This document shows positions 6,486 to 24,264 of a stretch of DNA of 64,000 nucleotides, piece after piece. The position numbers and the translations under genes were made by a program. A model generated the notes under the pieces. The model ran no database searches, had not been told where the DNA came from, and saw only the letters and a program-made list of their open reading frames with translations. How positions within the stretch are numbered: position 1 is the first letter of the stretch; the number at the start of each line of letters is the position of its first letter. The stretch is from Peptococcaceae bacterium BRH_c4b. Lineage in GTDB: Bacteria; Bacillota; Desulfotomaculia; Desulfotomaculales; Desulfocucumaceae. The stretch is from positions 1 to 64,000 of the forward strand of contig LADO01000028.1 in assembly GCA_000961595.1 (NCBI GenBank). Reading direction: 5' to 3'.

Positions 6486-7271
6486 ATGAGTGCCTGGTGG
6501 AATTTATTTAAAAAGGAATACCGAGTTACACGGACTTCCGCCCTTGTATTTTTAGCCATTCTTTTAATCGGGGGGCTGTGGCTGGTTTATCTTTCCCAGC
6601 GCTACAGCGCAGGGGTAATTATTGGACCAACTTCTATGCTTTTGGTTTTTCTAGTTTTTTACCCGGCGACTTATATACTTAAAAGCCTTTCCTGGGAGTT
6701 TAAGGTAACACCTCATCTCTGGCTGCACTGTCCCCAGCCGGCCTGGATGTTGTTATCTGCCAAGCTGGCTATCGGCCTGCTTCAAATGCTGGTAATTATG
6801 ATCATCACTGTGGCGTTACTGTTTTGGGGAATTTTAAACAGTTCATTGCCAGGACAACTAAGCGGTATTATACCTTCGCCTAGTTCATTTTTAATGGAAA
6901 TTGGCTTTTATGCTGCCCTTATTATCATTGCTGCCGGCATTTATATCGGAGCCTGGGCCACCTTAATATCAGTGGTGAGTGCAACTGCCAAAAACATTTT
7001 AGGCAAGTTCCGTTGGCTGGCCGGAATTGCTAGCTTTCTTGCAGCTACCTGGGGTATGGGTCAACTGCAGCAAACCTGGATTTTTCAACAAATCACCCGG
7101 TGGGGCCAGTTGCATTTAAGATTGCAGAGCCTTCAGGATATTCCTGCACCTTATAGAATGCATATCCAGCTGGATCAGCTTTATACCGGACAAATACTGT
7201 TCTATTTGCTATTAACTATATTATTATTTGCTCTGTCGGTCTGGCTGATCGATAACAAAATAGAGGTGTAG
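6486..7271 (+). CDS. ABC transporter permease
   Basis: 261-residue integral membrane protein with about six helices (ALVFLAILLIGGLWLVYL, SMLLVFLVFYPATYIL, LLQMLVIMIITVALLFWGIL, AALIIIAAGIYIGAW and two near the C-terminus). It is preceded by AGGAGG and ATG 6486. It is first in a three-gene unit with a GntR-type repressor and an ATPase. This layout matches Bacillus ytr-like operons that answer cell-envelope stress or antibiotics. The substrate is unknown. Confidence 0.85.
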   Translation: MSAWWNLFKKEYRVTRTSALVFLAILLIGGLWLVYLSQRYSAGVIIGPTSMLLVFLVFYPATYILKSLSWEFKVTPHLWLHCPQPAWMLLSAKLAIGLLQMLVIMIITVALLFWGILNSSLPGQLSGIIPSPSSFLMEIGFYAALIIIAAGIYIGAWATLISVVSATAKNILGKFRWLAGIASFLAATWGMGQLQQTWIFQQITRWGQLHLRLQSLQDIPAPYRMHIQLDQLYTGQILFYLLLTILLFALSVWLIDNKIEV

Positions 7272-8460: not shown

Positions 8461-8976
8461 GTGGATCATCCCGGATACATGCGGGAAGCCCTGCAGGAGG
8501 CCCAAAAGGCTTATGGTCTGGGAGAAGTACCCATAGGGGCGGTGGTGGTGCATAACGGCGAAATCATAGGCCGGGGCCACAACCTTCGGGAAATGCTGGC
8601 GGACAGCTCCGCCCACGCTGAAATACTGGCCATGCGGGAGGCTGCCCGGTTCCTGGGGGACTGGCGGCTGAACGACTGTGTACTGTACTCCACCGTGGAG
8701 CCCTGCCCCATGTGCGCCGGCGCCATAGTACAGTTCCGGGTGGGTATGCTGGTATACGGTGTGGCAGACCCCAAGGCGGGAGCCGTAGACTCCATCATGG
8801 ACATAGTCAGAGAGCCCAGGTTCAACCACCGGGTTGAGGTTGTTTCCGGGGTGTTGGCCGGGGAATGTGCCGGGATTATCAGGAAGTTTTTTCAGGAGCT
8901 AAGACAAAAAAATAAAACTGTTAAAAACGGAGAGATGGCCGAGCTGGTCGAAGGCGCTCGACTCGAAATCGAGTAG
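8461..8976 (+). CDS. tadA: tRNA-specific adenosine deaminase, reading into tRNA-Ser
   Basis: 171 residues. TadA converts A34 of tRNA-Arg(ACG) to inosine, and that tRNA is encoded at 1691. The zinc deaminase signature is complete: HAE (AHAEILAM, Glu as proton shuttle) and PCPMCAG (around residues 81-87). The start is a GTG eight bases after AAGGGG. Codon 157 begins exactly at the first base of the tRNA-Ser gene. The last 15 residues (GEMAELVEGARLEIE) are encoded by tRNA sequence, and the stop codon lies in the anticodon arm. The enzyme core is complete before the overlap, so the tail is probably tolerated extra sequence. Confidence 0.95.
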   Translation: MDHPGYMREALQEAQKAYGLGEVPIGAVVVHNGEIIGRGHNLREMLADSSAHAEILAMREAARFLGDWRLNDCVLYSTVEPCPMCAGAIVQFRVGMLVYGVADPKAGAVDSIMDIVREPRFNHRVEVVSGVLAGECAGIIRKFFQELRQKNKTVKNGEMAELVEGARLEIE

Positions 8977-9022
8977 ACTGTGATGAGCGGTCTCCAGGGT
9001 TCGAATCCCTGTCTCTCCGCCA
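8929..9022 (+). tRNA. tRNA-Ser (anticodon CGA)
   Basis: 94 nt class II tRNA. Acceptor stem GGAGAGA/TCTCTCC, anticodon loop CTCGAAA between CTCGA and TCGAG, a long variable arm, GGTTCGAATCC T-arm and an encoded CCA. Its first 48 bases are also the end of tadA. Its 3' half is repeated at 24140-24205, marking it as the integration site of the island. Confidence 0.96.
8961..9022 (+). repeat. Left attachment repeat (3' half of tRNA-Ser)
   Basis: From ACTCGAAATC at 8961 the sequence matches the copy starting at 24140 for 47 bases without change. It then matches to the CCA except for four extra bases in the right copy. The similarity continues into the terminators that follow. Confidence 0.85.
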
Positions 9023-9035
9023 GATTAGAACAAAG

Positions 9036-9082
9036 ACAAGTGCTTTTCACGTTTTACGGTGAGAAGCACTTGTTAGTTTTTG
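9036..9082 (+). terminator. Terminator of tRNA-Ser
   Basis: A 15 bp stem (9036-9050 with 9059-9073, one G-U pair) is followed by TAGTTTTT. Related hairpins occur at 14564 and 24219. Confidence 0.85.
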
Positions 9083-11959: not shown

Positions 11960-12163
11960 TCACTCCTCCGGCTCACCCAGCGCCAACCTCAGCACTCTCT
12001 TTACATCCTCCCAGTTCACCGACCGGCCAGCCTGGTGAGCCTCTATGGCCGCCATTGCATACTGACAAGCCAAGTATCTGGACTCGCCTATGCCAAATTC
12101 AGAGTGATCCGGAGTAAAATCGGGGCAATGGATCAGCGGCTCATGGCCGCACAGCTCTTTCAT
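11960..12163 (-). CDS. Small cysteine-rich hypothetical protein
   Basis: 67 residues from the first ATG; function not recognised. The frame stays open upstream to 12253 and there encodes more cysteines (KHRCLCAFCGNEEGCDNYCE), so the true protein may be longer or its start may be lost. No ATG, GTG or TTG occurs in the extension. Paired cysteines suggest a zinc-binding module. The C-terminal half (FGIGESRYLACQYAMAAIEA) looks helical. It lies between the methylase remnant and the membrane operon, with no obvious partner. Confidence 0.45.
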   Translation of the reverse strand: MKELCGHEPLIHCPDFTPDHSEFGIGESRYLACQYAMAAIEAHQAGRSVNWEDVKRVLRLALGEPEE

Positions 12164-12362
12164 TTCGCAATAGTTGTCACAGCCTTCTTCGTTTCCGCAA
12201 AACGCGCAAAGGCACCTATGTTTGTGTGAGCAAGATACCTTTTGGCAAATTTCTTAGCATAATTTTATTGCTATTTGCCAGTAGTATTATGATAATAACA
12301 TCAACGAGCGGCGCCTATAATTTGCAACAGGTCCCATCACTTTAGCTCTAAAGAATTTATCA

Positions 12363-12662
12363 TTAACCCAGTTCGCCAACAATTGCTAGACACGTAATTG
12401 TTAAACCCCCCACAGCTAAAAGCAAAAAAATCGGATTAATTGGGGTATATTGACTGAAGCGGGCGTTTGGAAATCTTGCCGATAAATATGCATCGATGAG
12501 TTTTTCAACTATATTTATTAACCTCATAGCTAATTGTTGAACACCAAAAACCACCAAAAGGCATATCATTACAACTGTATTAAAATACCCGGCAGTTGTT
12601 GTATACTCTTTTGAAATTCCTTTCAGTAGTAATTCACTAATAGGTAAAATATTTTCTAACAT
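12363..12662 (-). CDS. Small membrane protein, third gene of unknown operon
   Basis: 99 residues with two predicted helices (TVVMICLLVVFGVQQLAM and PIFLLLAVGGLTITCLAIVG) separated by a basic loop containing LIDAYLSARFPNARFSQY. It starts ten bases after the preceding gene and has AAAGGTGA as ribosome site. I recognise no family. Conserved order with the two upstream genes suggests a three-component, membrane-located system. Confidence 0.6.
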   Translation of the reverse strand: MLENILPISELLLKGISKEYTTTAGYFNTVVMICLLVVFGVQQLAMRLINIVEKLIDAYLSARFPNARFSQYTPINPIFLLLAVGGLTITCLAIVGELG

Positions 12663-12672
12663 ATCGTCACCT

Positions 12673-13218
12673 TTACAATAAAGTTAAAAACAATGTTATA
12701 AGCAACCCCAATGATCCTAGCATAACTAAAGCCGATATATTAGGATCTATAATATCCAACCCTGATATTCTTCGTATTGCAAACATGGAAAAAGAAAAGC
12801 AAAAAGCACCAAACAACAAGGATGCAACAGCAAAAAAAGATCCCGTAAAAAGGACTAAAATGATCCCTATAAATATTGCTGAGATTGATATGTAATTGAC
12901 AACCTTGAGAGACAGAAAACTTTTTGTCATTTGCTTTCCCTTCTCTCCGTTATTGATGGATTCTTCCTTCTCCCTGCCATGATAGGATGATCCTTCATCC
13001 GCACCAGAGGGCTGTACGAATGGTAAGGAATAGAATTCAGTTGAATCTTCGTTACTTCCTGTTCCTATTATATTATTACCAAAACCACCCGTTGTCACTG
13101 GTGTATCTTTGGGAATAAATGTCACAATTGCACGATAGCCACTGGGCACTTTTATATGTAAATCTTCAAAGTCGTTTTGTCTGATAGGAACTACCTTGTT
13201 GCTACGTTGTTGATTCAC
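12673..13218 (-). CDS. Membrane protein with hydrophilic N-terminal half, second gene of unknown operon
   Basis: 181 residues. Residues 1-100 are polar and include IKVPSGYRAIVTFIPKD and a Gly/Asn/Ser-rich linker. The C-terminal 80 residues hold three hydrophobic helices (YISISAIFIGIILVLFTG, FFAVASLLFGAFCFSFSMF, ALVMLGSLGLLITLFLTL). The GTG start lies directly after the stop of the upstream gene, with GAGGTGAG inside that gene as ribosome site, so translation is coupled. No family recognised. Confidence 0.6.
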   Translation of the reverse strand: MNQQRSNKVVPIRQNDFEDLHIKVPSGYRAIVTFIPKDTPVTTGGFGNNIIGTGSNEDSTEFYSLPFVQPSGADEGSSYHGREKEESINNGEKGKQMTKSFLSLKVVNYISISAIFIGIILVLFTGSFFAVASLLFGAFCFSFSMFAIRRISGLDIIDPNISALVMLGSLGLLITLFLTLL

Positions 13219-13920
13219 CTATCTCACCTCAATAGAATTTAACATAGCAAAAACTTCATTTTTTAAGTGCCTGGAAGTATCATCCAAAAATACATTTAAT
13301 TTCTTTAGCGTTATCATCTCTTCAATATACATATCTACGTCTATAAAAATACCATATTTTACATTTACCTCAGAGCCTTCGGTGTTAATAACTATATTCT
13401 GATTCTGACCAGGATTTATAGATATATTTGTTTTTAACCCATGTTTATCTGTTGAAAACCTTATCATAAAACCAGTTAAATCTCCAACTCCTTTTATGAT
13501 TTTCTGATCAAGGGTAGAAATTTTATAAATATTTTTTATCGCTTCTTCCATTGAATCCCTCTGGTCAATATAAACCACCCTAAAACCAAACCTGGCAAAT
13601 TTTTGTATATCAAGAACATCTGAGACTATTGCTACAAATTTTTTTATATAATCCTGAAATGTTTCAATATTTATATTTTCAATAGATGACATTCCAATCC
13701 TGTCCAGCATTACACCGCATGTTATTTTATCTTTTGGATTGGTAAAATGTACTTCGTTCTCATTGATGTATGATTGTAAATCTAAGAACCCTCGAACTTT
13801 TTTAGCCAATGTATTTGCTTCTGTCTTATCAATAGCCAGCATCGGTGAGGAAAAGCGCCCATCAAAAATAGAATGCGCACAAAAAAAACCCTTTGTATTA
13901 AATAATTTCACGAAACTCAC
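13219..13920 (-). CDS. Hypothetical protein, possibly TIGR04255-like, first gene of unknown operon
   Basis: 233 residues, soluble, no signal peptide. The segment FARFGFRVVYIDQRD followed by a C-terminal GIFIDVDMYIEEMITL is reminiscent of the sporadically distributed TIGR04255 family, whose members occur in defence and mobile regions; this is a weak likeness from memory. The ribosome site GAGGTGAG precedes ATG 13918-13920. It heads the three-gene operon with two membrane proteins. The A+T content of the operon is visibly higher than that of the surrounding backbone genes, consistent with acquisition. Confidence 0.55.
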   Translation of the reverse strand: MSFVKLFNTKGFFCAHSIFDGRFSSPMLAIDKTEANTLAKKVRGFLDLQSYINENEVHFTNPKDKITCGVMLDRIGMSSIENINIETFQDYIKKFVAIVSDVLDIQKFARFGFRVVYIDQRDSMEEAIKNIYKISTLDQKIIKGVGDLTGFMIRFSTDKHGLKTNISINPGQNQNIVINTEGSEVNVKYGIFIDVDMYIEEMITLKKLNVFLDDTSRHLKNEVFAMLNSIEVR

Positions 13921-14111
13921 CTCACCAATTATTTCAACATAATATGTAATTATCCTCTAAATTTTCCTAAGCTTCATTATTTTCCTGCAGAAGAATCCTC
14001 CACATAAACCCAAAAAAACCTCCCTCCCCGGCCAGTGTGAAAGAAGGCTTTTGTTGAGATATATGTTGATGTTATTTTATGATGTCTGCGGCGGCTCATT
14101 CGCTGGCTTGA

Positions 14112-14549
14112 AAAACTGCGTCAGGCAAGGTTAGAAAGCGCCCTGATTTTACTTGTAAACTGACTAACCCTTTTGCAGTCTGCGCCAATGAGCACGAAAT
14201 ACCATTTCATGTTGAATGCAAGCGTTTGGGATCTCCGACGAGTGCTAGCTGGGTTCTCAATAAGAATTATGTAATAAATGGAATCAAACGTTTTGACTGC
14301 ATGAGGCATGAATATGGGAAACGGGCTTCTTCCGGCATGATGGTTGGTTATATCATCAGCATGTCTCCTGAAATAATATTGGATGAAGTCAACACCCATC
14401 AAAAACAGCATTGCACTGATAATCCAGCTATTGAATTTGAAGTTTGTCAAAAAAACATACAGCAATATCGGCAAAAACTAAATCGGAAAAATTTGAAACC
14501 AGAAATATTTGAACTGGTTCACCTCTGGGTTGATTTGAGGAGCCAATGA
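14112..14549 (+). pseudogene. PD-(D/E)XK restriction-type nuclease remnant
   Basis: The frame is open from after TGA 14109 to 14549 but has no normal start; the only early option is TTG 14226, which would cut off the active site. The translation shows RKRPDFTCK, then HEIPFHVECKRLG, so the Pro-Asp and Glu-x-Lys of a PD-(D/E)XK active site lie 24 residues apart. It continues with NKNYVINGIKRF and GMMVGYIISM, which resemble restriction endonuclease-like proteins. About 145 residues remain. The N-terminal part is missing, so I treat it as a relic. Confidence 0.55.
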
Positions 14550-14563
14550 AATGAGAATGAAAG

Positions 14564-14609
14564 ACAAGGGATTCTCGCTATTGAAGGTGAGAATCCCTTG
14601 TTGTTTTTT
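14564..14609 (+). terminator. Terminator related to that of tRNA-Ser
   Basis: ACAAGGGATTCTC (14564-14576) pairs perfectly with 14589-14601 and is followed by GTTTTTT. It shares its design and wording (AAAGACAAG...GGTGAGA...CTTGTT) with the hairpins at 9036 and 24219. Confidence 0.8.
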
Positions 14610-14803
14610 GGGGTGGATTTGGCTTGTAGCCGAGGTGAGAGCCGATGGTGGCCGCATAACGCATTTTTTAGTAATGTGCCAACCGGCACCGGTGTGTGTA
14701 GGCGATGTTATGGGTAAAACGGTTAGAAAATACAACATGTTCAAAATAACGCACCAATTCATAGGCGTCTATGTCATGTTAAGATATAACATGGCAAAAA
14801 ATG

Positions 14804-14831
14804 TTGACAGAGGAAATTGTTTTGTTATAAT
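14804..14831 (+). promoter_or_regulatory. Strong promoter of the structured RNA/HNH unit
   Basis: Perfect TTGACA (14804-14809) and perfect TATAAT (14826-14831) with a 16-base spacer. Transcription would start near 14838, just before three successive hairpins. Confidence 0.75.
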
Positions 14832-14837
14832 GTAATT

Positions 14838-14947
14838 ATTGTTCAGCCCGTTTCTAGGGAAGGCTGAAGTCACAAAAATAGAGACAAAAAAACAAGCCCA
14901 AGAACAGGCCATTCTTGGGCTTGGCGCTGAGAATCAGCTCATTTTTT
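14838..14947 (+). ncRNA. Candidate structured RNA or attenuating leader
   Basis: About 110 nt start behind a consensus promoter and contain no open frame. Hairpin 1: TTCAGCC (14842-14848) with GGCTGAA (14862-14868). Hairpin 2: a 12 bp stem, 14893-14904 with 14912-14923, loop of seven. Hairpin 3: GCTGA-GAA-TCAGC (14926-14938), then T6 at 14942-14947, which looks like a weak intrinsic terminator. It could be a free small RNA or an attenuator for the HNH gene 95 nt downstream. I cannot match it to a known RNA family. The rest of the gap up to 15042 holds only an AATACC/GGTATT inverted pair and the ribosome site of the HNH gene. Confidence 0.5.
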
Positions 14948-15042
14948 CAAGTATAATCACATAATACCGTAAAACACACTCCAAAAGCAATGGTATTTGT
15001 GGTTTTGCTGGTGGATGCGCTTTGTCTCGGAAAGGAGAAACT

Positions 15043-15353
15043 ATGGCACATCAACCAAATCGTACGTTTCTGAATGAGTCATTTGATCCGCGGACGATTT
15101 TAGCAGTGTGTGGAATAAGGCCGCCATGGTCTCCGGCCAAAATGATTTAAAGATAGACCGGTGTGGCGCGTGGATCAGATTTGCCGATTACGGTAATGTC
15201 AATTCCGATTTTGGTTGGGAAATTGACCATGAGAAGCCGGTAGCCAAGGGTGGAACAGATGACCTGGATAACCTCCAACCGCTGCACTGGCGCAACAACC
15301 GGGGTAAAGGCGACAACTGGCCGAATTGGACTTGTTCATATTCGGCAAAGTAA
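15043..15353 (+). pseudogene. HNH endonuclease, frameshifted in a TG repeat
   Basis: AAAGGAG and ATG 15043 open a frame that reads MAHQPNRTFLNESFDPRTIL and stops at about 15150. The second half is in another frame from 15108: WNKAAMVSGQND, then CGAWIRFADYGN, WEIDHEKPVAKGGTDDLDNL and LHWRNNRGKGDNW. This is a small HNH family in which the WEIDH His and the later Asn and His build the beta-beta-alpha metal site. The frames join at GTGTGTGG; removal of one TG would give ILAVWNKA, the expected family sequence. Either the gene is inactivated or the repeat acts as a slippage switch. Confidence 0.7.
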
Positions 15354-15455
15354 ATAGGCTCCCATGCTGCTACAGCTGCTGCAGACGGAAGAATAAGATA
15401 AATTAGATAGTCACGGTAGCGACCCGTTCTCGCCAAAAGATTAACTTGTCTAAAT

Positions 15456-15490
15456 GCCAAAGCCACTCTTACAATAGTAGTGGCTTTGGC
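15456..15490 (+). terminator. Hairpin between HNH gene and restriction operon
   Basis: GCCAAAGCCACT (15456-15467) is perfectly complementary to 15479-15490. The following sequence is only moderately T-rich (TTCCATTT). Confidence 0.65.
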
Positions 15491-15547
15491 TTCCATTTAG
15501 ACCGGCTTTATGCGTTCTCCCGTAATGTCCCTGAAGGGTGTGAAAAA

Positions 15548-16150
15548 GTGAGGACACTTAGAAAGGTAAAACTTGAGAAAATAGCTAATATATTAAATGG
15601 TGTGCCTGACGCCAAGCTACCGGGGAAAGCAAACAGCACAGGTGTGATAACATATAACTTTATTCAGCCTAACCATTTGGGAATTTTCAATGATATACAG
15701 ATTACTTCAGCAATAAAAAGACATACCTCCGTTGATGATAGCTATTTCGTTCGAAAGAACGATATTTTACTGAAACGGCTGAATCCGGACATTGCAACGC
15801 TAGTAATTGAGGACATGTCAAACACAGTTTTTTCAAGTAATCTCTTTGTTATTCGTGTGTTCAAAGACTATTGCCCGGCCTATATAGCCTGCCTGCTGGA
15901 AAACCAGGGCATGATCTGGTTAAATAGCAATATTGTCGGTTCGGTTGCGGCAATAAAATCTATATCCGCAAAATCATTAGCGGCGTTGGATATTCCCGCC
16001 ATAGACTACGATCAACAAAAAGCGATTGGTCAGATGTGGCTGCTATATAAAAAACGAAAAAAACTGCTTGGGAATATGATTGAAGAAGATCAAAGGCTTA
16101 TGGCAGCAGTAATAAATAGTATCACGGCAGGCGCCAAGGAGGAAAAATGA
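15548..16150 (+). CDS. Type I restriction specificity-like protein with a single recognition domain
   Basis: About 200 residues, half the size of a normal HsdS. It contains one target-recognition domain (VKLEKIANILNGVPDAKLPG near the start) and one helical spacer ending in IDYDQQKAIGQMWLLYKKRKKLL, the place where S subunits contact HsdM. An upstream start at 15446 is possible, but a terminator-like hairpin lies inside that extension, so GTG 15548 is preferred. It overlaps hsdM by four bases. Half-S proteins can work as dimers, or it may be a leftover or a swap partner for the full S gene at 18851. Confidence 0.75.
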   Translation: MRTLRKVKLEKIANILNGVPDAKLPGKANSTGVITYNFIQPNHLGIFNDIQITSAIKRHTSVDDSYFVRKNDILLKRLNPDIATLVIEDMSNTVFSSNLFVIRVFKDYCPAYIACLLENQGMIWLNSNIVGSVAAIKSISAKSLAALDIPAIDYDQQKAIGQMWLLYKKRKKLLGNMIEEDQRLMAAVINSITAGAKEEK

Positions 16151-17733
16151 TGGCTACTACGAGAAAAGACATCGAGGCAGCTCTCTGGAGAGGCGCGAAT
16201 ACTTTCAGAGGTGCTATAGATGCAGCCAATTACAAAGATTACATATTGCCGATGCTTTTTGTGAAATATCTGAGCGACACCTATTTAGAAAAGGTTGGAG
16301 AGTTAAGGGAAAAATATAATGACCCGGTGAGGGTACAAAGAGCGATAAACAGACTCCCTTTTGTGATCAAGGAAAAACACATGTTCTCCTGGCTTCATCA
16401 AAACAGATATAACGACAACTTGGGGGAACTCATCAATATCGCTTTGCGGGGGATAGAAGATGATAATCCTTCACTATTTACAGGGGTATTTAGAAATATT
16501 GACTTTAATAGTGAATCTATGTTGGGCAATCATAAACAAAAAAATACCCGGTTAAGGGAAATACTTGAAGATTTTGAACCCCTTGATTTGCGCCCTTCTT
16601 CCATCCAGCCTGAGGAAGGCAAGGTGGCGGCCGACACTATAGGCGATGCCTATGAATATATGATTGGCGAGTTTGCCAGACAGGCAGGTAAAAAAGCCGG
16701 CTCCTTTTTTACTCCGTCTGAAATTTCGGAACTGATGGCACGCATTGTCGATCCCAAAATAGGCGACACCATGTATGACCCAACGTGCGGCTCCGGATCT
16801 CTGCTCATCAGAACCGGGAAAAATGCTATTGAAAAGGAAAATGGCAATATAAAGATTCTTGCGCTGTATGGTCAGGAAATGAATGGGTCTTCCTGGTCTA
16901 TGGCCAAAATGAACATGTTTATCCATGAAATAATGGACGCCAGGATTGCCTGGGGCGATTCCCTTGCCAATCCCATGCACTTGGACTCCGACGGCAATCT
17001 TATGCAGTTTGATGTCATCGTGGCCAATATGCCTTTTTCGCAGGACAAATGGGCGGCAGGCTTTAATACCGGTGGCGAAATGACCGGCAAAGGCAAAGAA
17101 TTCAAGATGGAAGCATCCCTTGATAAATTTCACCGCTTTGACTGGGGAGTGCCTCCTGCCAGTAAAGGCGACTGGGCATTTTTGCTGCATATGATAGCCA
17201 GTCTTAAAAGCGGTGGCAGAATTGCCGCCGTTGCTCCCCATGGCGTTTTGTTCAGGGGTGCGTCCGAAGGAAGGATAAGGCAAGCCGTAATAGAAAAAAA
17301 TCTATTGGATGCAGTTATTGGTCTGCCTGCAAACCTGTTTTACGGCACCAGCATTCCGGCCTGCATTTTAGTATTTAAGAAAAACCGCAATCGTGATGAT
17401 GTGCTTTTCATTGATTCTGCCGGCAGGGATGAAAATGGCAACCTCCGCTACAGGAAAGATAAGAATCAGAACAGGCTGGAAACAAAACACATCGACGATA
17501 TCGTAAAAGCATATGAGAACCGTGTAGAAAGTGAAAAATTTGCCCATTTGGCAACCATTGACGAGATAAAAGCCAACGAATATAACCTGAATATCCCCCG
17601 GTATGTTGATACTTTTGAAGAAGAAGCGCTGGTGGATATTGAAGAGGTAAAAACCAATATTGCCAACATCCAAAAGGAGCTTGCCGAAGTCGAAGTGCAG
17701 ATGGCCAAGTATCTCAAGGAGTTGGGATTATGA
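16147..17733 (+). CDS. hsdM: Type I restriction-modification system methyltransferase subunit
   Basis: 528 residues, usual length. An N-terminal HsdM helical domain (RGAINTFRGA-like RGANTFRGAIDAANYKDYIL, residues 13-32) is followed by the N6-adenine methylase fold: SAM motif DPTCGSG at about residue 211, and motif IV as ANMPF at about 293, with Met in the second position where NPPF is common. A Met at this site occurs in some HsdM lineages, so it need not inactivate the enzyme. It forms the M2S complex that protects host DNA. It overlaps the genes on both sides by four bases. Confidence 0.95.
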   Translation: MMATTRKDIEAALWRGANTFRGAIDAANYKDYILPMLFVKYLSDTYLEKVGELREKYNDPVRVQRAINRLPFVIKEKHMFSWLHQNRYNDNLGELINIALRGIEDDNPSLFTGVFRNIDFNSESMLGNHKQKNTRLREILEDFEPLDLRPSSIQPEEGKVAADTIGDAYEYMIGEFARQAGKKAGSFFTPSEISELMARIVDPKIGDTMYDPTCGSGSLLIRTGKNAIEKENGNIKILALYGQEMNGSSWSMAKMNMFIHEIMDARIAWGDSLANPMHLDSDGNLMQFDVIVANMPFSQDKWAAGFNTGGEMTGKGKEFKMEASLDKFHRFDWGVPPASKGDWAFLLHMIASLKSGGRIAAVAPHGVLFRGASEGRIRQAVIEKNLLDAVIGLPANLFYGTSIPACILVFKKNRNRDDVLFIDSAGRDENGNLRYRKDKNQNRLETKHIDDIVKAYENRVESEKFAHLATIDEIKANEYNLNIPRYVDTFEEEALVDIEEVKTNIANIQKELAEVEVQMAKYLKELGL

Positions 17734-18575
17734 GCAATATACAAAAATATAGCAATAAAACCTTTGAGGAAATTAAGCACATCAATGAATACGGAGCGGA
17801 GTACTGGCTGGCAAGGGAATTGGCTCCTGTTCTTGAATATGCCCGCTGGGAAAATTTCTATAAAGTCCTGGAAAAGGCTAAGGAAGCCTGCGAGAATAGT
17901 AATATCAACGTGGTAGACCATTTTCGCGAGGTCACGAAAATGGTTGATATAGGCTCCAATACTCAAAGAGAAATTAGAGAAATTGAGCTTTCCCGATACG
18001 CCTGCTATTTGATAGTACAAAATGCAGACCCCAGAAAGAAAGTGGTAGCCCTTGGACAAACCTATTTTGCTGTGCAAACAAGGCGGCAGGAGCTGCAGGA
18101 TGACTTTAATAAACTGGATGAAAATGCAAAACGCCTGGCTATCCGGGAGGAAATCCGTGAACATAATAAATCCCTGGCTGAAGTCGCACAGATGGCGGGT
18201 GTTGAAACTCCGCAAGAATACGCGGTTTTTCAAAACAAAGGCTATCAGGGTCTTTACGGCGGCCTGGGCGTTAAAGAAATACATAAAAGAAAAGGCTTGA
18301 AGAAAAGTCACAAGATACTTGACCATATGGGCAGCACAGAGCTTGCGGCCAATCTGTTCCGGGCGACCCAAACTGATGAAAAAATAAGAAGGGATAATGT
18401 AAAAGGTAAAGAAAAGGCCAACCGAACTCATTATATCGTTGGCAAAACCATTCGGGACACCATCAAAAAGCTGGGCGGAACAATGCCCGAAGAACTGCCC
18501 ACGCCTGAAGAAAGCATCAGGCAGCTTGAAAAGAAAGAGCCAAAAAGAATAACAGGCAAAAATGAGACAAAATGA
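17730..18575 (+). CDS. dinD: DNA damage-inducible protein D
   Basis: 281 residues, colinear with Escherichia coli DinD as I remember it: ARELAPVLEYARWENFYKVL, IGSNTQREIREIELSRYACY, GQTYFAVQTRRQEL, FQNKGYQGLYGGL, HKILDHMGSTELAANLFRAT and GGTMPEELPTPEESI. DinD of E. coli binds ssDNA-RecA filaments and inhibits strand exchange after SOS induction. Here it is embedded in the type I operon by four-base overlap with hsdM. This context fits a role in sparing the host from self-cleavage or in sensing DNA breaks (inference). No LexA box is visible because it has no promoter of its own. Confidence 0.93.
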   Translation: MSNIQKYSNKTFEEIKHINEYGAEYWLARELAPVLEYARWENFYKVLEKAKEACENSNINVVDHFREVTKMVDIGSNTQREIREIELSRYACYLIVQNADPRKKVVALGQTYFAVQTRRQELQDDFNKLDENAKRLAIREEIREHNKSLAEVAQMAGVETPQEYAVFQNKGYQGLYGGLGVKEIHKRKGLKKSHKILDHMGSTELAANLFRATQTDEKIRRDNVKGKEKANRTHYIVGKTIRDTIKKLGGTMPEELPTPEESIRQLEKKEPKRITGKNETK

Positions 18576-18850
18576 AAAGGGGACGACTATATAGACAAAT
18601 ATTTTAATAGCCAAAGAATCCTTGACGGTTAAAATTATGGGCAGAACGTTCTAACACTACAACGTAAGCTAGCCCGCTACGCCACGGGAACGGTTCCATC
18701 GTCTTCCCTTCAGCCCTTCGCTGCGCTTCGGGAACAATCTAACCTACCCCATGGCTCCGCTCAGAAAGAAAGTGGTAGTCTTTGGAAAGCCTATTCGAAA
18801 TGAAATTGAGACATATATATATTGGTGAGCTTGGATTGCAGGTGGTAGTT
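18576..18850 (+). other. Spacer between dinD and hsdS with a dinD-derived scrap
   Basis: 275 bp without a gene. It interrupts an operon that is otherwise linked by four-base overlaps. Positions 18762-18795 repeat 34 bases from inside dinD (18032-18065) with four mismatches. The remainder contains a GC-rich inverted stretch around 18670-18745 and no clear promoter. The layout indicates a past insertion or rearrangement between dinD and hsdS. Confidence 0.6.
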
Positions 18851-20143
18851 ATGAAAAGAAACAATGAATATTCTGTGATAAAGAAGAATTATAAAGATTA
18901 TCCGAGTGACTGGAGAACTATTGAATTAGGTAATTTGCTTGAAAAAGTTAGAAGACCTGTTGAGGTTATTTCTAATTGTGAGTATCACGAAATTGGTATT
19001 CGCTCCCATGGAAAAGGATTGTTTTATAAAGAAACAGTTAAAGGAAGCGACTTGGGGAGTAAATCCGTATTTTGGATTGAGGCGGACTGCTTAATTATTA
19101 ATATTGTTTTTGCATGGGAGCAAGCCGTCGGTATTACTACCGCTCAAGAAAAAGGAATGATTGCTTCGCACAGATTCCCGATGTGGAAGTCAAAAGGAAA
19201 CGTAGAATTAAATTATTTACTGAAGTTTTTTTTGACTCCGTTTGGTAAAAATCTTCTTGAATTAGCCTCACCGGGTGGAGCAGGAAGAAATAAGACACTT
19301 GGACAGGATGAATTCAATAAAATCCTGGTCTGTATACCTTCAAATATTGAAGAACAACAAAAAATAATTAAAATTCTCACTACTTGGGACAAGGCCATTG
19401 ATTTAAAGGAAAGGCTTATCTCCGAGAAAAAACAGCAGAAAAAGTGGCTGATGCAGAATCTGCTAACAGGCAAAAAACGCCTTCCCGGCTTCACCGACGA
19501 GTGGCAAGAGGTATGGCTGGGGGATGTATTTGTTTTTGATGGGGGAATTCCTGTCTCAAGAAATGAATTGCACATGAATGAAGGTATTTGCTATCTGCAT
19601 TATGGTGACATCCATAAATCAAATAAGTCTTATATTGATGTCAAAGAGGAATACTCTTTTCTTCCAAAGATGCTGGTTTCAGTCAATGAATTGAACAGTA
19701 ATTATCTTTTATGTGATGGGGATGTTGCGTTTGCAGATGCATCCGAGGATTATGAAGGAACATGCAAATATGTTGTGGTAAAAAACAAAGAGAACATTCC
19801 GTTCATAGCTGGTCTTCATACAATAATTGCTCGTCCAACAAACGATTCGATTTCTGACGAATTCAAACAACATTGTTTTGGTAGTTTTAATGTCAAAAGA
19901 CAATTTGCAATTCATGCAAATGGGATTTCTGTGTATGGGATTAGTAAAAGGAGCATTGCGAAGATTTCATTTTCGCTTCCGTCCCTGCCTGAACAAACTG
20001 CCATCGCCAATATCCTCTCCACTGCAGACCATGAAATTGATCTACACCAAAAGCAGCTTGAGGAGCTTAAAAAACAGAAAAAAGCTCTGATGCAGCAGCT
20101 GCTGACAGGAATTGTGAGAGTCAACGCGGAGAAGGTGATTTGA
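18851..20143 (+). CDS. hsdS: Type I restriction specificity subunit
   Basis: 430 residues with two target-recognition domains, each followed by a helical spacer. The spacers repeat the motif LMQNLLTGKKRLPGF (residues about 200-214) and LMQQLLTGIVRVN (near the C-terminus). These repeats make the pseudo-dimeric scaffold that binds two HsdM and fixes a bipartite DNA target. ATG 18851 follows AGGTGG; an earlier in-frame ATG at 18782 falls inside the dinD-like scrap and has no ribosome site. It overlaps hsdR by four bases. Confidence 0.94.
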   Translation: MKRNNEYSVIKKNYKDYPSDWRTIELGNLLEKVRRPVEVISNCEYHEIGIRSHGKGLFYKETVKGSDLGSKSVFWIEADCLIINIVFAWEQAVGITTAQEKGMIASHRFPMWKSKGNVELNYLLKFFLTPFGKNLLELASPGGAGRNKTLGQDEFNKILVCIPSNIEEQQKIIKILTTWDKAIDLKERLISEKKQQKKWLMQNLLTGKKRLPGFTDEWQEVWLGDVFVFDGGIPVSRNELHMNEGICYLHYGDIHKSNKSYIDVKEEYSFLPKMLVSVNELNSNYLLCDGDVAFADASEDYEGTCKYVVVKNKENIPFIAGLHTIIARPTNDSISDEFKQHCFGSFNVKRQFAIHANGISVYGISKRSIAKISFSLPSLPEQTAIANILSTADHEIDLHQKQLEELKKQKKALMQQLLTGIVRVNAEKVI

Positions 20144-23100
20144 TGCCCAACCATACCATATTCGACGAACGCCCTGAGAGTCAGGACAGGGCGATAAAAG
20201 TTTTGAATAAATTAGGCTATCAATACATACCCCGCTCGCAGGCGGAAGCCTTACGTGGACGGCTTTCCAATGTCCTGTTCCCCGAGGTTTTGCGTGAATT
20301 TCTGCACCGCCAGTCCTTTGTATACAGGGGCAAGCAAACGCCCTTTTCCGACCGTTCCATCGGCAAGGCCATCAACGATATTGACGCGCCGCTGGTCTCC
20401 GGGCTGATGTCGGCGAGTAAAACAATCTACGATATGCTCCTTTCCGGCAACAGCTATGAAGAGGAGCTGTTTGACGGCGGCCGTCAATCCTTTGATTTAA
20501 AGTTTATTGACTGGGAGCAGCCGGAGAACAATATATGGCAGGTGACGGATGAGTTCCCGGTAGAACGGCAGAACGGCAAGTATGTGCGGCCGGATATAGT
20601 GCTGCTGGTCAATGGTATTCCCCTGGTGGTGATCGAGTGCAAAAAATCCAGTATCGATGTGGAAAAAGGAGTTGCCCAAAATATACGCAACTGTCAGCCC
20701 AACTATATCCCACATTTGTTTAAATATGCCCAAATCATTATGGCCATGAACCCAAACACAGTTAAATACGGTACTTGCAATACGCCTTCCGAACACTTTA
20801 GTATATGGCGGGAAAAGAACTACAAATGGCAGCAGGAAAAATGCAACAAGGTCAGTCCGGACGGAAAAGTCACTGAACAGGACAGGGCTATCGTTTCCAT
20901 ACTCTCCAGGGAGAGATTGTTGGAACTGATTCGCTATTTCATACTATACGACAACAATGTGAAGAAAATCGCCCGCTACCAGCAGTTTTTCGGCATACAG
21001 GCAGCCATGCAGCGCATAAAAGGGGAAGATGGCAAGGGTACCAGAAGCGGTGTGATCTGGCATACGCAAGGTAGCGGAAAATCTCTCACCATGGTGATGC
21101 TGGTTAAAAAGATAATAGCTGATCCGGATATCAGGGAGCCCCGCTTTGTGCTTGTCAACGACCGGATTAATCTGGATAAACAGCTGCGGGATAACTTTGC
21201 CAAAGCCCGGCTTAGTCCGGCCCGGGCCAGGACGGGCACGGGGTTGATCGGTTTGTTGAATGACAAAAGCGAAACGATAATTACCACCCTTGTACATAAA
21301 TTTGATGCGGCGGCCAAAAAAAGAGTCAGGATTAAAGACGACAATATTTTTTTGCTGGTGGATGAAAGCCATCGCACCCACTCGGGCGAACTCCATGACT
21401 TTATGCTTGATGTGCTGCCCAATGCGATAAAAATAGGTTTTACCGGCACGCCGCTGCTTAAGAAACACAAGTTCAATACCTATGCGCAGTTCGGACCGCT
21501 TATCGACAGCTACCCTATTATCAGGGCTGTGGAAGATGGTGTCATCGTTCCCCTTGTTTATGAGGGCAGGATTATTCCACAGGATGTGACGGGCGAGAAA
21601 ATTGACCATTATCTCAAATACATCATCGCGCCGCTGAACCGTGAGCGGCAGGAAGATATGAAGCGCAAATGGAGCCGGTTTTTACCCCTGGCCCAGACCC
21701 GTCAACGTATAGACATGGTGGCCTTTGATATTCATGAGCACTTTATGCGTTATGCCAAGCCGAAGGGGTTTAAGGCTATGATCGCGGCATCCTCCCGCCC
21801 CACAGCTATTGACCTGCATAAATCCATTAGAAAACTTGGCGGTGTAAAAACGGCGGTGGTGATATCACCCGAAAATGTTAAAGAAGGTGATGAGCTTACC
21901 AGCGCAAACAAAGAGAAAATAAAGGCCTTTTTCAAAGATGAGGTGGAGCCTCTCTTTGGCAACAACTACGAGGAATATGGTGAGTGGGCCAAAAATAGCT
22001 TCATTGGCGGCGAAGATGTGGATATGCTTATTGTCAAGGATATGCTTCTAACCGGCTTTGATGCACCGGCTGCTGCCGTGCTGTATGTAGATAAACCCAT
22101 GAGGGAGCATTCACTGCTGCAGGCCATTGCCCGGGTCAATCGAGTGTTTCCCGGTAAAGACTTCGGACTCATCGTGGATTACTGGGGCATTTTCAGCAAG
22201 CTTAATACTGCCCTGGATATGTATGCGGATGAAAAATCCGGCATGGATGGATATGATCGGGCCGATATAGAAAATGCTGTTCATGGCTCCGGTGATCAAA
22301 AGCTCAAACTGGAAAAGGCTCACCAGGAATTGTGGTTAATATTTGAGGGAAAAGATTTTGCTCGTTACAGTTCCGAGGGCTGGCAAAGCGCATTGGCGGA
22401 CAATGATTTGAGAAAAGTATTTTATGAAAGGCTTTCAACATTTTCCCGTTTATTGGATTTGGCTATGGGAAGCTATGCATTGTATAGTGCCATCGGATAT
22501 GACCAGATGCAGAAATACAAGCAAGATTTGCTTCATTTCCAAAAGCTTCGCGGGGCAGTTTTGCTCCGTTACAATGAAAGAGTGGATTTTAGCAAGTATG
22601 AAGACGGCATTCGCAGCCTGCTGAATAACTTTGTGCTTTCCGAACCAAGCCAAATCATTGTTGAACCGGTATCTATCCACGATACCGAAGGGATGAAGGA
22701 GCAGCTTGAAAAACTGGATAGCAAAGCCGCCAAAGGGGATGCCATTCGTACCCGTATGGATAGAGAACTGGAAAGCTGCCGCTATGATGACCCTTTGCTA
22801 TACAAGAGGTTTTCTGAGCAGGTCAAAGAAACCCTTGAAGAATACAGGGCATCAAGAAATGATAATGCTTATCTCTTTGAAATGGAGAAAATGGCGGATG
22901 ATTTTAAAAGAGGCTATACCGGCCATCACTACCCAGCCTGTATAGACAATGACAGTGATGCGAAAGCTTTTTACGGCACGATTCAGAGTATCATTGCCGA
23001 AGCGATAAATGATGTGCCGCCGGAAATGGATGAAGCTATGGGGCAATTGGCCATGGAGGTCAAAAAGGCCATTGCCAGCCGCGCCAAGGTGGATTGGCGT

Positions 23101-23247
23101 CATAATGCAGCTGTGCACAAAGATATGGAGCAAGCCCTGGACGACCTGATTTGGGATTTTACTGAAGAATATGAAATAAAATTGCCTGTTGAGAAAATTG
23201 ATCTTATGCTGGAAGGACTCAGAAAAACAGCAATTAGCAGGTATTAG
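20140..23247 (+). CDS. hsdR: Type I restriction endonuclease motor subunit
   Basis: 1035 residues, full length. The N-terminal RecB-like nuclease shows RPDIVLLVNGIPLVVIECKK (about residues 149-168) with the D...ExK centre. The two RecA-like helicase domains have Walker A HTQGSGKS (about 308-315), DESH (about 408) and the TGTPLL motif III. The C-terminal helical region binds the M2S core. Together with hsdM and hsdS at 16147-20143 it forms a complete type I system that translocates and cuts unmodified DNA. Confidence 0.96.
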   Translation: MMPNHTIFDERPESQDRAIKVLNKLGYQYIPRSQAEALRGRLSNVLFPEVLREFLHRQSFVYRGKQTPFSDRSIGKAINDIDAPLVSGLMSASKTIYDMLLSGNSYEEELFDGGRQSFDLKFIDWEQPENNIWQVTDEFPVERQNGKYVRPDIVLLVNGIPLVVIECKKSSIDVEKGVAQNIRNCQPNYIPHLFKYAQIIMAMNPNTVKYGTCNTPSEHFSIWREKNYKWQQEKCNKVSPDGKVTEQDRAIVSILSRERLLELIRYFILYDNNVKKIARYQQFFGIQAAMQRIKGEDGKGTRSGVIWHTQGSGKSLTMVMLVKKIIADPDIREPRFVLVNDRINLDKQLRDNFAKARLSPARARTGTGLIGLLNDKSETIITTLVHKFDAAAKKRVRIKDDNIFLLVDESHRTHSGELHDFMLDVLPNAIKIGFTGTPLLKKHKFNTYAQFGPLIDSYPIIRAVEDGVIVPLVYEGRIIPQDVTGEKIDHYLKYIIAPLNRERQEDMKRKWSRFLPLAQTRQRIDMVAFDIHEHFMRYAKPKGFKAMIAASSRPTAIDLHKSIRKLGGVKTAVVISPENVKEGDELTSANKEKIKAFFKDEVEPLFGNNYEEYGEWAKNSFIGGEDVDMLIVKDMLLTGFDAPAAAVLYVDKPMREHSLLQAIARVNRVFPGKDFGLIVDYWGIFSKLNTALDMYADEKSGMDGYDRADIENAVHGSGDQKLKLEKAHQELWLIFEGKDFARYSSEGWQSALADNDLRKVFYERLSTFSRLLDLAMGSYALYSAIGYDQMQKYKQDLLHFQKLRGAVLLRYNERVDFSKYEDGIRSLLNNFVLSEPSQIIVEPVSIHDTEGMKEQLEKLDSKAAKGDAIRTRMDRELESCRYDDPLLYKRFSEQVKETLEEYRASRNDNAYLFEMEKMADDFKRGYTGHHYPACIDNDSDAKAFYGTIQSIIAEAINDVPPEMDEAMGQLAMEVKKAIASRAKVDWRHNAAVHKDMEQALDDLIWDFTEEYEIKLPVEKIDLMLEGLRKTAISRY

Positions 23248-23250
23248 GTT

Positions 23251-23979
23251 ATGAAAGAAAACTCATGCATAACAGGGTTGTTTAGCGGTATTGAAGTAAT
23301 CATTGAGCGCAAAAGTGTAAAAAAAATCCGGCTAAAAGTTTTTCCGGACGGCGTTGTTAAGCTATCTGCACCGCTTGGAGTAGCGGATGAATGGATAAAT
23401 GATTACCTTAACAGCAAAACCAAATGGATAGAAAAGTCATTAAATTATTTCAAAGACACCGGGGCCAATGAGTTTGAAACAATAATACGCAGCGGAATAT
23501 CAACCCGTATTTTGGGCAGGCAAAAAAGGATCATTGTCAATGAAGGGAAAAGCTACAAAATAGAACAAAAAGAAGACTATGTTTTTATACAGTCACCCGC
23601 CACGGGGGATAAGCAAGCTCTACAGAAGCAGTTTGAGCGCTGGTGGCAAAAACAGAGCAAGTCGTATTTTTTGCTGGTCATTGAACGGTTATATCCTATT
23701 ATTGCCAAACATGGTATTGATAAACCGGTGCTTCAAGTTAGAAAAATGAAAACCCTTTGGGGCAGTTGCTCTAGCAAACACGGCAAAATCAATCTGAATT
23801 ACTATTTGTACAAAGCTTCGCCGCCCTGTATTGATTATGTTGTTTTACATGAGCTTACACACTTTCTTTATCCCAAACATAATAAAGATTTTTATGAATT
23901 TCTGACCGTGCATATGCCAGATTGGCAAGAGCGTAAAAGAATTCTTGATCACGAGATTGTAAAAGGACTGGAGTATTGA
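23251..23979 (+). CDS. YgjP-like M48 family zinc metallopeptidase (DUF45)
   Basis: 242 residues, starting three bases after hsdR and so part of the restriction operon. The zinc motif is VVLHELTHFLYPKHNKDFYE (around 204-223), with HExxH and a downstream conserved His. TLWGSCSSKHGKINLNYYL is the other block shared by YgjP/DUF45 proteins. Members are very often found behind hsdR genes, but their substrate is unknown. No membrane segment. Confidence 0.92.
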   Translation: MKENSCITGLFSGIEVIIERKSVKKIRLKVFPDGVVKLSAPLGVADEWINDYLNSKTKWIEKSLNYFKDTGANEFETIIRSGISTRILGRQKRIIVNEGKSYKIEQKEDYVFIQSPATGDKQALQKQFERWWQKQSKSYFLLVIERLYPIIAKHGIDKPVLQVRKMKTLWGSCSSKHGKINLNYYLYKASPPCIDYVVLHELTHFLYPKHNKDFYEFLTVHMPDWQERKRILDHEIVKGLEY

Positions 23980-24139
23980 AAAATAAGGTGGGAGTCGCCA
24001 AATAGCTGCCGAAATGGTGAAAAATATATGCAAACACCAGTCAACGGGTGTAATGCTGAAATGTCGGAGTTGGCCGAAAACAGTCGACAGGCAAGCATTC
24101 CGGAAAACAGTAGAAGCCACCAAAAAAGCCCTCCACAGA

Positions 24140-24205
24140 ACTCGAAATCGAGTAGACTGTGATGAGCGGTCTCCAGGGTTCGAATCAATCCCTGTCTCTC
24201 CGCCA
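24140..24205 (+). repeat. Right attachment repeat (tRNA-Ser 3' half, damaged)
   Basis: The copy spans from the anticodon loop to the CCA. It carries a four-base duplication (AATC) in the T-arm. No tRNA 5' half precedes it (24100-24139 is unrelated), so it is a remnant and not a gene. Confidence 0.85.
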
Positions 24206-24218
24206 GAATAGAACAAAG

Positions 24219-24264
24219 ACAAGGGCTTCTCACGATTGAAGGTGAGAGGCCCTTGTTGACTTTT
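24219..24264 (+). terminator. Terminator copy beyond the right repeat
   Basis: ACAAGGGCTTCTCAC (24219-24233) pairs with 24242-24256 with one G-U or mismatch and is followed by GACTTTT. It is homologous to the hairpin behind the intact tRNA-Ser. Confidence 0.8.

Follow-up and report, generated by a model that had tools for sequence, protein, structure and literature searches.

The window, as the whole stretch of 64,000 nucleotides analysed here is called, derives from Peptococcaceae bacterium BRH_c4b and carries a type I restriction-modification operon, recognisable from the joint presence of HsdM (16147-17733; TIGR00497, E 2.9e-87), HsdS (18782-20143; Pfam Methylase_S, E 1.2e-23) and HsdR (20140-23247; TIGR00348, E 1.1e-146). 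The first gene encodes a small HNH endonuclease (15043-15353; Pfam PF01844, E 3.5e-7) and is followed by a gene for an HsdS-like protein with a single TRD (15446-16150, with its conserved core from about 15569), which was assigned through the match of its relative L003 to PADLOC Specificity_I (E 7e-11) and through alignment A4. A DinD gene with a BRO-N domain (17730-18575; NF008573, E 3.3e-129), absent in several relatives, lies between HsdM and HsdS, and a gene for a YgjP-like metallopeptidase (23251-23979; Pfam PF01863, E 1.8e-53) closes the operon. All of these genes are on the plus strand and are overlapping or near-contiguous. The extra single-TRD protein before HsdM is well conserved across genera, the identities to the sequence that heads A4 being 60-89%; the full HsdS homologues are only 33-86% identical to that of the window. 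A perfect hairpin, GCCAAAGCCACT...AGTGGCTTTGGC (15456-15490), is conserved without a T-run at the junction of the HNH and specificity-like genes, and is possibly a processing or stability element. The intergenic region of these genes is otherwise short, but in two relatives (L055 and L057) it holds an extra short sequence, apparently a further small ORF. The 3' part of tRNA-Ser(CGA) and its adjoining hairpin occur as a direct repeat at 8961-9080 and 24139-24264, approximately 15 kb apart, and the restriction operon and its neighbours therefore look like part of an integrated island associated with tRNA-Ser.

The HNH gene starts at the ATG at 15043. A 2-base (TG) insertion in GTGTGTGG (15106-15113) splits it into two frames, the second of which spans 15108-15353, and a search of the window's own genome returns HNH as two pieces in different frames; the gene is intact in 17 relatives, none of which has the insertion. 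The HNH protein of the window is probably N-terminally truncated or inactive, or else the insertion is a sequencing error. The initial annotation of this region had placed a structured RNA upstream of an HNH gene; such a gene does follow, although it is frameshifted rather than intact. HNH proteins at these loci have 81-115 amino acids, with HNH as the only domain found, and a sequence-based search for solved structures matching the family returned none.

A consensus promoter, TTGACA-N16-TATAAT, is located upstream on the plus strand at 14804-14831 (TTGACA at 14804-14809, a spacer of 16 nt, and TATAAT at 14826-14831), and is the probable promoter of the operon. The hexamers had been described as perfect, and they do give a 12/12 match that is kept in homologues and is the sole one among the promoter-like sites of positions 12000-17000; as a class, matches of 9-12/12 are no commoner there than chance would give (11 found, 13.9 expected). 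Upstream of the -35 element lies an inverted repeat, ATGTTA-N5-TAACAT (14776-14792, no strand assigned), the probable operator of the operon. The repeat is found at the same position in relatives, including the leaderless loci L053, L062 and L064, and identity over the repeat and promoter is 65%, compared with 23% further upstream. Four matches to the repeat pattern occur in the window's own genome and three to a reversed control, i.e. without enrichment, and membership of the operator in a genome-wide regulon was rejected on these grounds. The bipartite palindrome resembles a site suited to a dimer of the single-TRD HsdS-like protein, and it is a guess that the operon is autoregulated by its own half-S/HsdM through this repeat.

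Between the promoter and the first ORF of the operon, on the same strand, is the sequence in which the initial annotation had recognised three consecutive hairpins ending in T6. Folding recovers them as H1 (7 bp, 14842-14868), H2 (12 bp, 14893-14923) and H3 (5 bp, 14926-14938), with the T6 following H3 in the window. The predicted fold of 14838-14947 has a minimum free energy of -35.2 kcal/mol (z = -3.10 against 200 shuffles), and this segment has no ORF of at least 60 amino acids, in keeping with the earlier remark that it has no open frame. Inspection of the alignment by eye for an upstream ORF within the leader revealed none that is retained, with indels shifting the frame between relatives.

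The RNA had been taken to be a transcript of 110 nt with its end at 14947, a boundary that comparison with homologues does not uphold. A T-run of at least six after H3 is present in only three of 22 homologues, one of them being the window, and several have fewer than four T in the eight nucleotides after H3; the H3 stem is conserved. In the oriented alignment, conservation starts at the inverted repeat, takes in the promoter and hairpins, does not break off at the T6 and reaches the Shine-Dalgarno (SD) sequence of the following gene, so that the conserved RNA runs on for approximately 90 nt, as far as the SD (15029-15037). Since the T-run is unconserved and conservation reaches the SD, the boundary of 14838-14947 was abandoned in favour of 14838-15037. 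These data also bear on whether the element is a transcription attenuator, in which H3 with its T-run, or alternative pairings of H2 and H3, would end transcription early and a signal would permit read-through into the operon. H3, followed in the window by TCATTTTTT, is scored terminator-like, as attenuation would predict, but the lack of conservation of the T-run led to rejection of H3 as a terminator, and conservation extends beyond it through the SD. Attenuation is thus unlikely. Of the options first proposed it nevertheless comes nearest, in that the position of the RNA fits a cis-regulatory 5' leader, although the evidence favours control of translation over termination.

The 3' half of the leader is joined to the 5' half by a long-range helix, P1, in which GAGACAAA (14881-14888) pairs with TTTGTCTC (15021-15028), the latter lying directly before the SD. 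The SD itself reads GGAAAGGAG in all but two of the 22 homologues, and those two have AGAAAGGAG. Across the 22 sequences 97.5% of P1 cells are paired, and compensatory changes occur at two pairs: 54/210, which is A-U or G-C, and 55/209, which is C-G, U-A or A-U, the U-A being confined to two sequences of one genus and so possibly a single event. Most P1 pairs are invariant or changed on one side only. The covariation score of P1 is 0.126 compared with 0.076 when shuffled, and is reached by one of 500 shuffles, controls that ignore phylogenetic relatedness; when the strands were slid out of register, covariation did not exceed 0.032 nor pairing 53%. Five pairs of H2 also show two-sided changes. 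A lack of compensatory base changes among homologues had been named as a refutation of this RNA, and such changes are present. A tentative fourth helix, H4 (14969-15008), pairs GTAAAAC (14969-14975) with GTTTTGC (15002-15008); 79% of its cells are paired and one pair is changed on both sides, and it was dropped from the consensus fold. An alternative pairing in the 3' half, AATACC:GGTATT, was rejected, having 82.9% of cells paired and no two-sided changes. We judge the predicted structured RNA and its promoter to be real. Comparison among homologues shows P1, as a predicted helix, bringing the 5' region beside the SD of the first gene, and so involves the expression platform in the structure; the part played by H1 in this is suggestive only.

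The 5' arm of H1 contains an anti-SD, CCUUUUC, complementary to the GGAAAGG of the SD. Relatives usually have CCTTTTC, and the window has CCGTTTC (14848-14854), with one mismatch to the SD. RNAalifold, given the alignment only, placed the H1 5' arm on the SD unprompted. In each of the 22 sequences the SD-H1 duplex has an energy lower than the shuffle mean (mean shuffle fraction 0.042), and 91.6% of cells in the anti-SD helix are paired, a value that is still 82.5% when the helix is slid by one column. There is almost no covariation in this pairing, a test made uninformative by the near-invariance of the SD. The complementarity of H1 and SD, together with the RNAalifold pairing, makes two exclusive states plausible and suggests an on/off fold in which H1 and the anti-SD:SD duplex would exclude one another. 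In the predicted ensemble of the window the SD is 98% unpaired, which corresponds to a predicted ON state. About half of the sequences, among them the window, have a predicted fold in which P1 and H1-H3 form and the SD stays free. This last prediction would suit a fold that merely protects or positions the mRNA, for stability or insulation and without switching. Such a role is quite unlikely, as it leaves unexplained the recurrent complementarity of H1 to the SD.

H2 has also to be considered from the other strand. A strong terminator-like site with a T7 run is present on the minus strand at 14923-14893, and 5-8 A precede H2 in all 22 homologues, features that would be expected if a minus-strand RNA of approximately 60 nt, starting near 14955 and ending at the H2 terminator, bound the leader as an antisense regulator, by analogy with EcoRI and Eco29kI. 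However, A-rich linkers need no antisense reason, and the best minus-strand promoter match averages 8.1/12 compared with 7.6 in shuffles, an excess that is small and not clearly above chance, and a minus-strand promoter was set aside on this account. Antisense control is regarded as improbable.

Within HNH-type loci, mean pairwise identity of the leader is 67%, compared with 59% at third codon positions of HNH, 55% at fourfold sites, 32% in the intergenic region between HNH and the specificity-like gene, and 23% upstream. Moreover, P1 and the SD are retained when the coding sequence behind them switches from HNH to phrog_4298, an unrelated family, which argues that the constraint is on the RNA and not on HNH codons. 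When the leader was modelled by covariance over 199 positions, the element of approximately 200 nt was found in 20 of 113 genomes searched within the order, with one leader per genome among the matches listed and a single copy in the window's own genome. Among 399 genomes spread over the phylum the model finds one clear genome outside the order, which represents a second family elsewhere in the phylum, and one weak match. A blastn search over 120 related genomes matched 23. Carriers include Desulfocucumis palustris (the genus of the window), Pelotomaculum, Desulfoscipio, Desulforamulus, other Peptococcaceae and a Syntrophomonas MAG. A search of Rfam (4,227 families) at gathering and lax E-values gave no family match, returning only tRNAs and chance miRNA-type hits; blastn against phage records gave no match, and literature searches found no description of the element. 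The suggestion that the RNA is new is therefore sustained as regards Rfam, and the leader appears to represent a hitherto undescribed RNA family.

All 20 leaders head one type of operon, comprising a small gene, the single-TRD HsdS-like protein, HsdM, in some cases DinD, HsdS, HsdR and YgjP. The specificity-like protein is present in 23 of 120 relatives, a weak match in G116 being left out of this count, and the leader in 20 of those 23. The small gene behind the 20 leaders encodes HNH in 16 genomes and, in four, an unrelated protein of 72 amino acids (PHROG family 4298), from which it follows that the RNA is not HNH-specific. HNH itself occurs in 18 of the 23 genomes with the specificity-like protein: 16 with the full leader, and G076 and G112 with matches to the promoter region only. 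L053 and L062 lack both leader and small gene, and their inverted repeat and promoter immediately precede the specificity-like gene. In L064 the repeat and promoter are kept and the leader is absent, and the slot (about 6600-6900) holds a fragment that appears DUF2188-like by eye, unscored, with no single-frame read-through. Loss or decay of the small gene at these loci thus coincides with absence of the leader, which therefore goes with the slot gene and not with HNH as such. HNH follows a truncated leader in three relatives, L058, where direct reading shows only H1 to be left, and G076 and G112, where truncation is deduced from the promoter-only matches; the full structure would be dispensable there.

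These observations weigh upon the earlier proposals that the element is a separate small RNA of 110 nt or an RNA antitoxin dedicated to the nuclease. A stand-alone small RNA or type III-like antitoxin neutralising the HNH protein would account for the structured RNA that precedes a small, nuclease-like gene, and has a precedent in AbiF/RCd22, where an RNA antitoxin lies beside its toxin gene (PMC12373285), but it is highly improbable, since the 3' end and terminator are not conserved, the structure takes in the ribosome binding site through conserved pairing, the same RNA precedes the unrelated phrog_4298 in four of 20 genomes, and HNH relatives on viral contigs lack the RNA, none matching the covariance model. 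Plasmid members of the HNH and phrog_4298 families, viewed for gene content only, have unrelated gene neighbourhoods; together with the viral HNH result, this led to rejection of a general RNA link to either family.

Taken together, the hairpins first noted are probably the 5' half of a structured mRNA leader of approximately 200 nt (14838-15037), acting in cis to control translation, and a switch on translation is the most likely interpretation, ahead of a free small RNA or an HNH antidote. The consensus promoter would give rise to one transcript containing the leader followed by the small HNH gene and then the type I operon. The leader would control translation initiation of the first gene, and perhaps the wider operon through coupling or mRNA stability. 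In the ON state H1 would be formed and the SD free; in the OFF state the 5' arm of H1, CCUUUUC, would lie on the SD, GGAAAGG. Several observations speak against this interpretation: the mismatch in the anti-SD of the window and its largely unpaired SD, the frameshift in the HNH gene there, the near-absence of covariation in the anti-SD pairing and its persistence when slid, the invariance or one-sided change of most P1 pairs, and the three relatives that have HNH behind a truncated leader. Candidate signals that may shift the balance between H1 and the anti-SD pairing are an operon protein, a host factor, a metabolite and temperature. A broader and more doubtful proposal is that the head of a mobile type I operon is an exchangeable 'cargo slot' under a dedicated RNA switch, which would hold translation of whichever small protein occupies it, HNH or the phage-related phrog_4298, OFF or ON until a signal such as DNA entry, phage infection or heat flipped H1 against the anti-SD. 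If the leader works as a switch on translation, type I restriction cassettes bring along an RNA switch of their own that serves an exchangeable accessory gene. The leader also serves to mark, in sulfate-reducing and syntrophic Bacillota, a restriction module that is recognisable and transferable.

Among known systems, the IscB omega RNA (HEARO) likewise places a structured RNA beside an HNH gene. In contrast, the leader has no HEARO/omega or other Rfam match, is not HNH-specific and is predicted to be part of an mRNA, and the protein has HNH only, without RuvC, which agrees with the initial view that this is not an omega RNA. The RCd22/AbiF pair and type III antitoxins resemble it in that a small defence-linked gene is immediately preceded by a structured RNA (PMC12373285), but the leader occurs with unrelated proteins, has an unconserved 3' end and is predicted to pair with the ribosome binding site. 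Closer parallels are riboswitches, ribosomal protein leaders and RNA thermometers, with which the leader shares its position between promoter and ORF, covarying helices, a conserved helix strand flanking the SD and a possible anti-SD/anti-anti-SD pair. It differs from these in its lack of an Rfam match, in being found only before one type of restriction operon, and in being kept while the regulated gene is swapped. Within restriction-modification systems, a text search of two reviews of their control found no structured leader, attenuation or riboswitch for a type I operon (PMC3874152, PMC12707154), and these reviews describe antisense RNAs or hairpins at the ribosome binding site for type II systems such as EcoRI and Eco29kI. 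The likeness to these is that a restriction-modification operon is controlled through RNA where its translation starts, which is here predicted from sequence, and the difference is that EcoRI and Eco29kI are type II systems, whereas the leader heads a type I operon.
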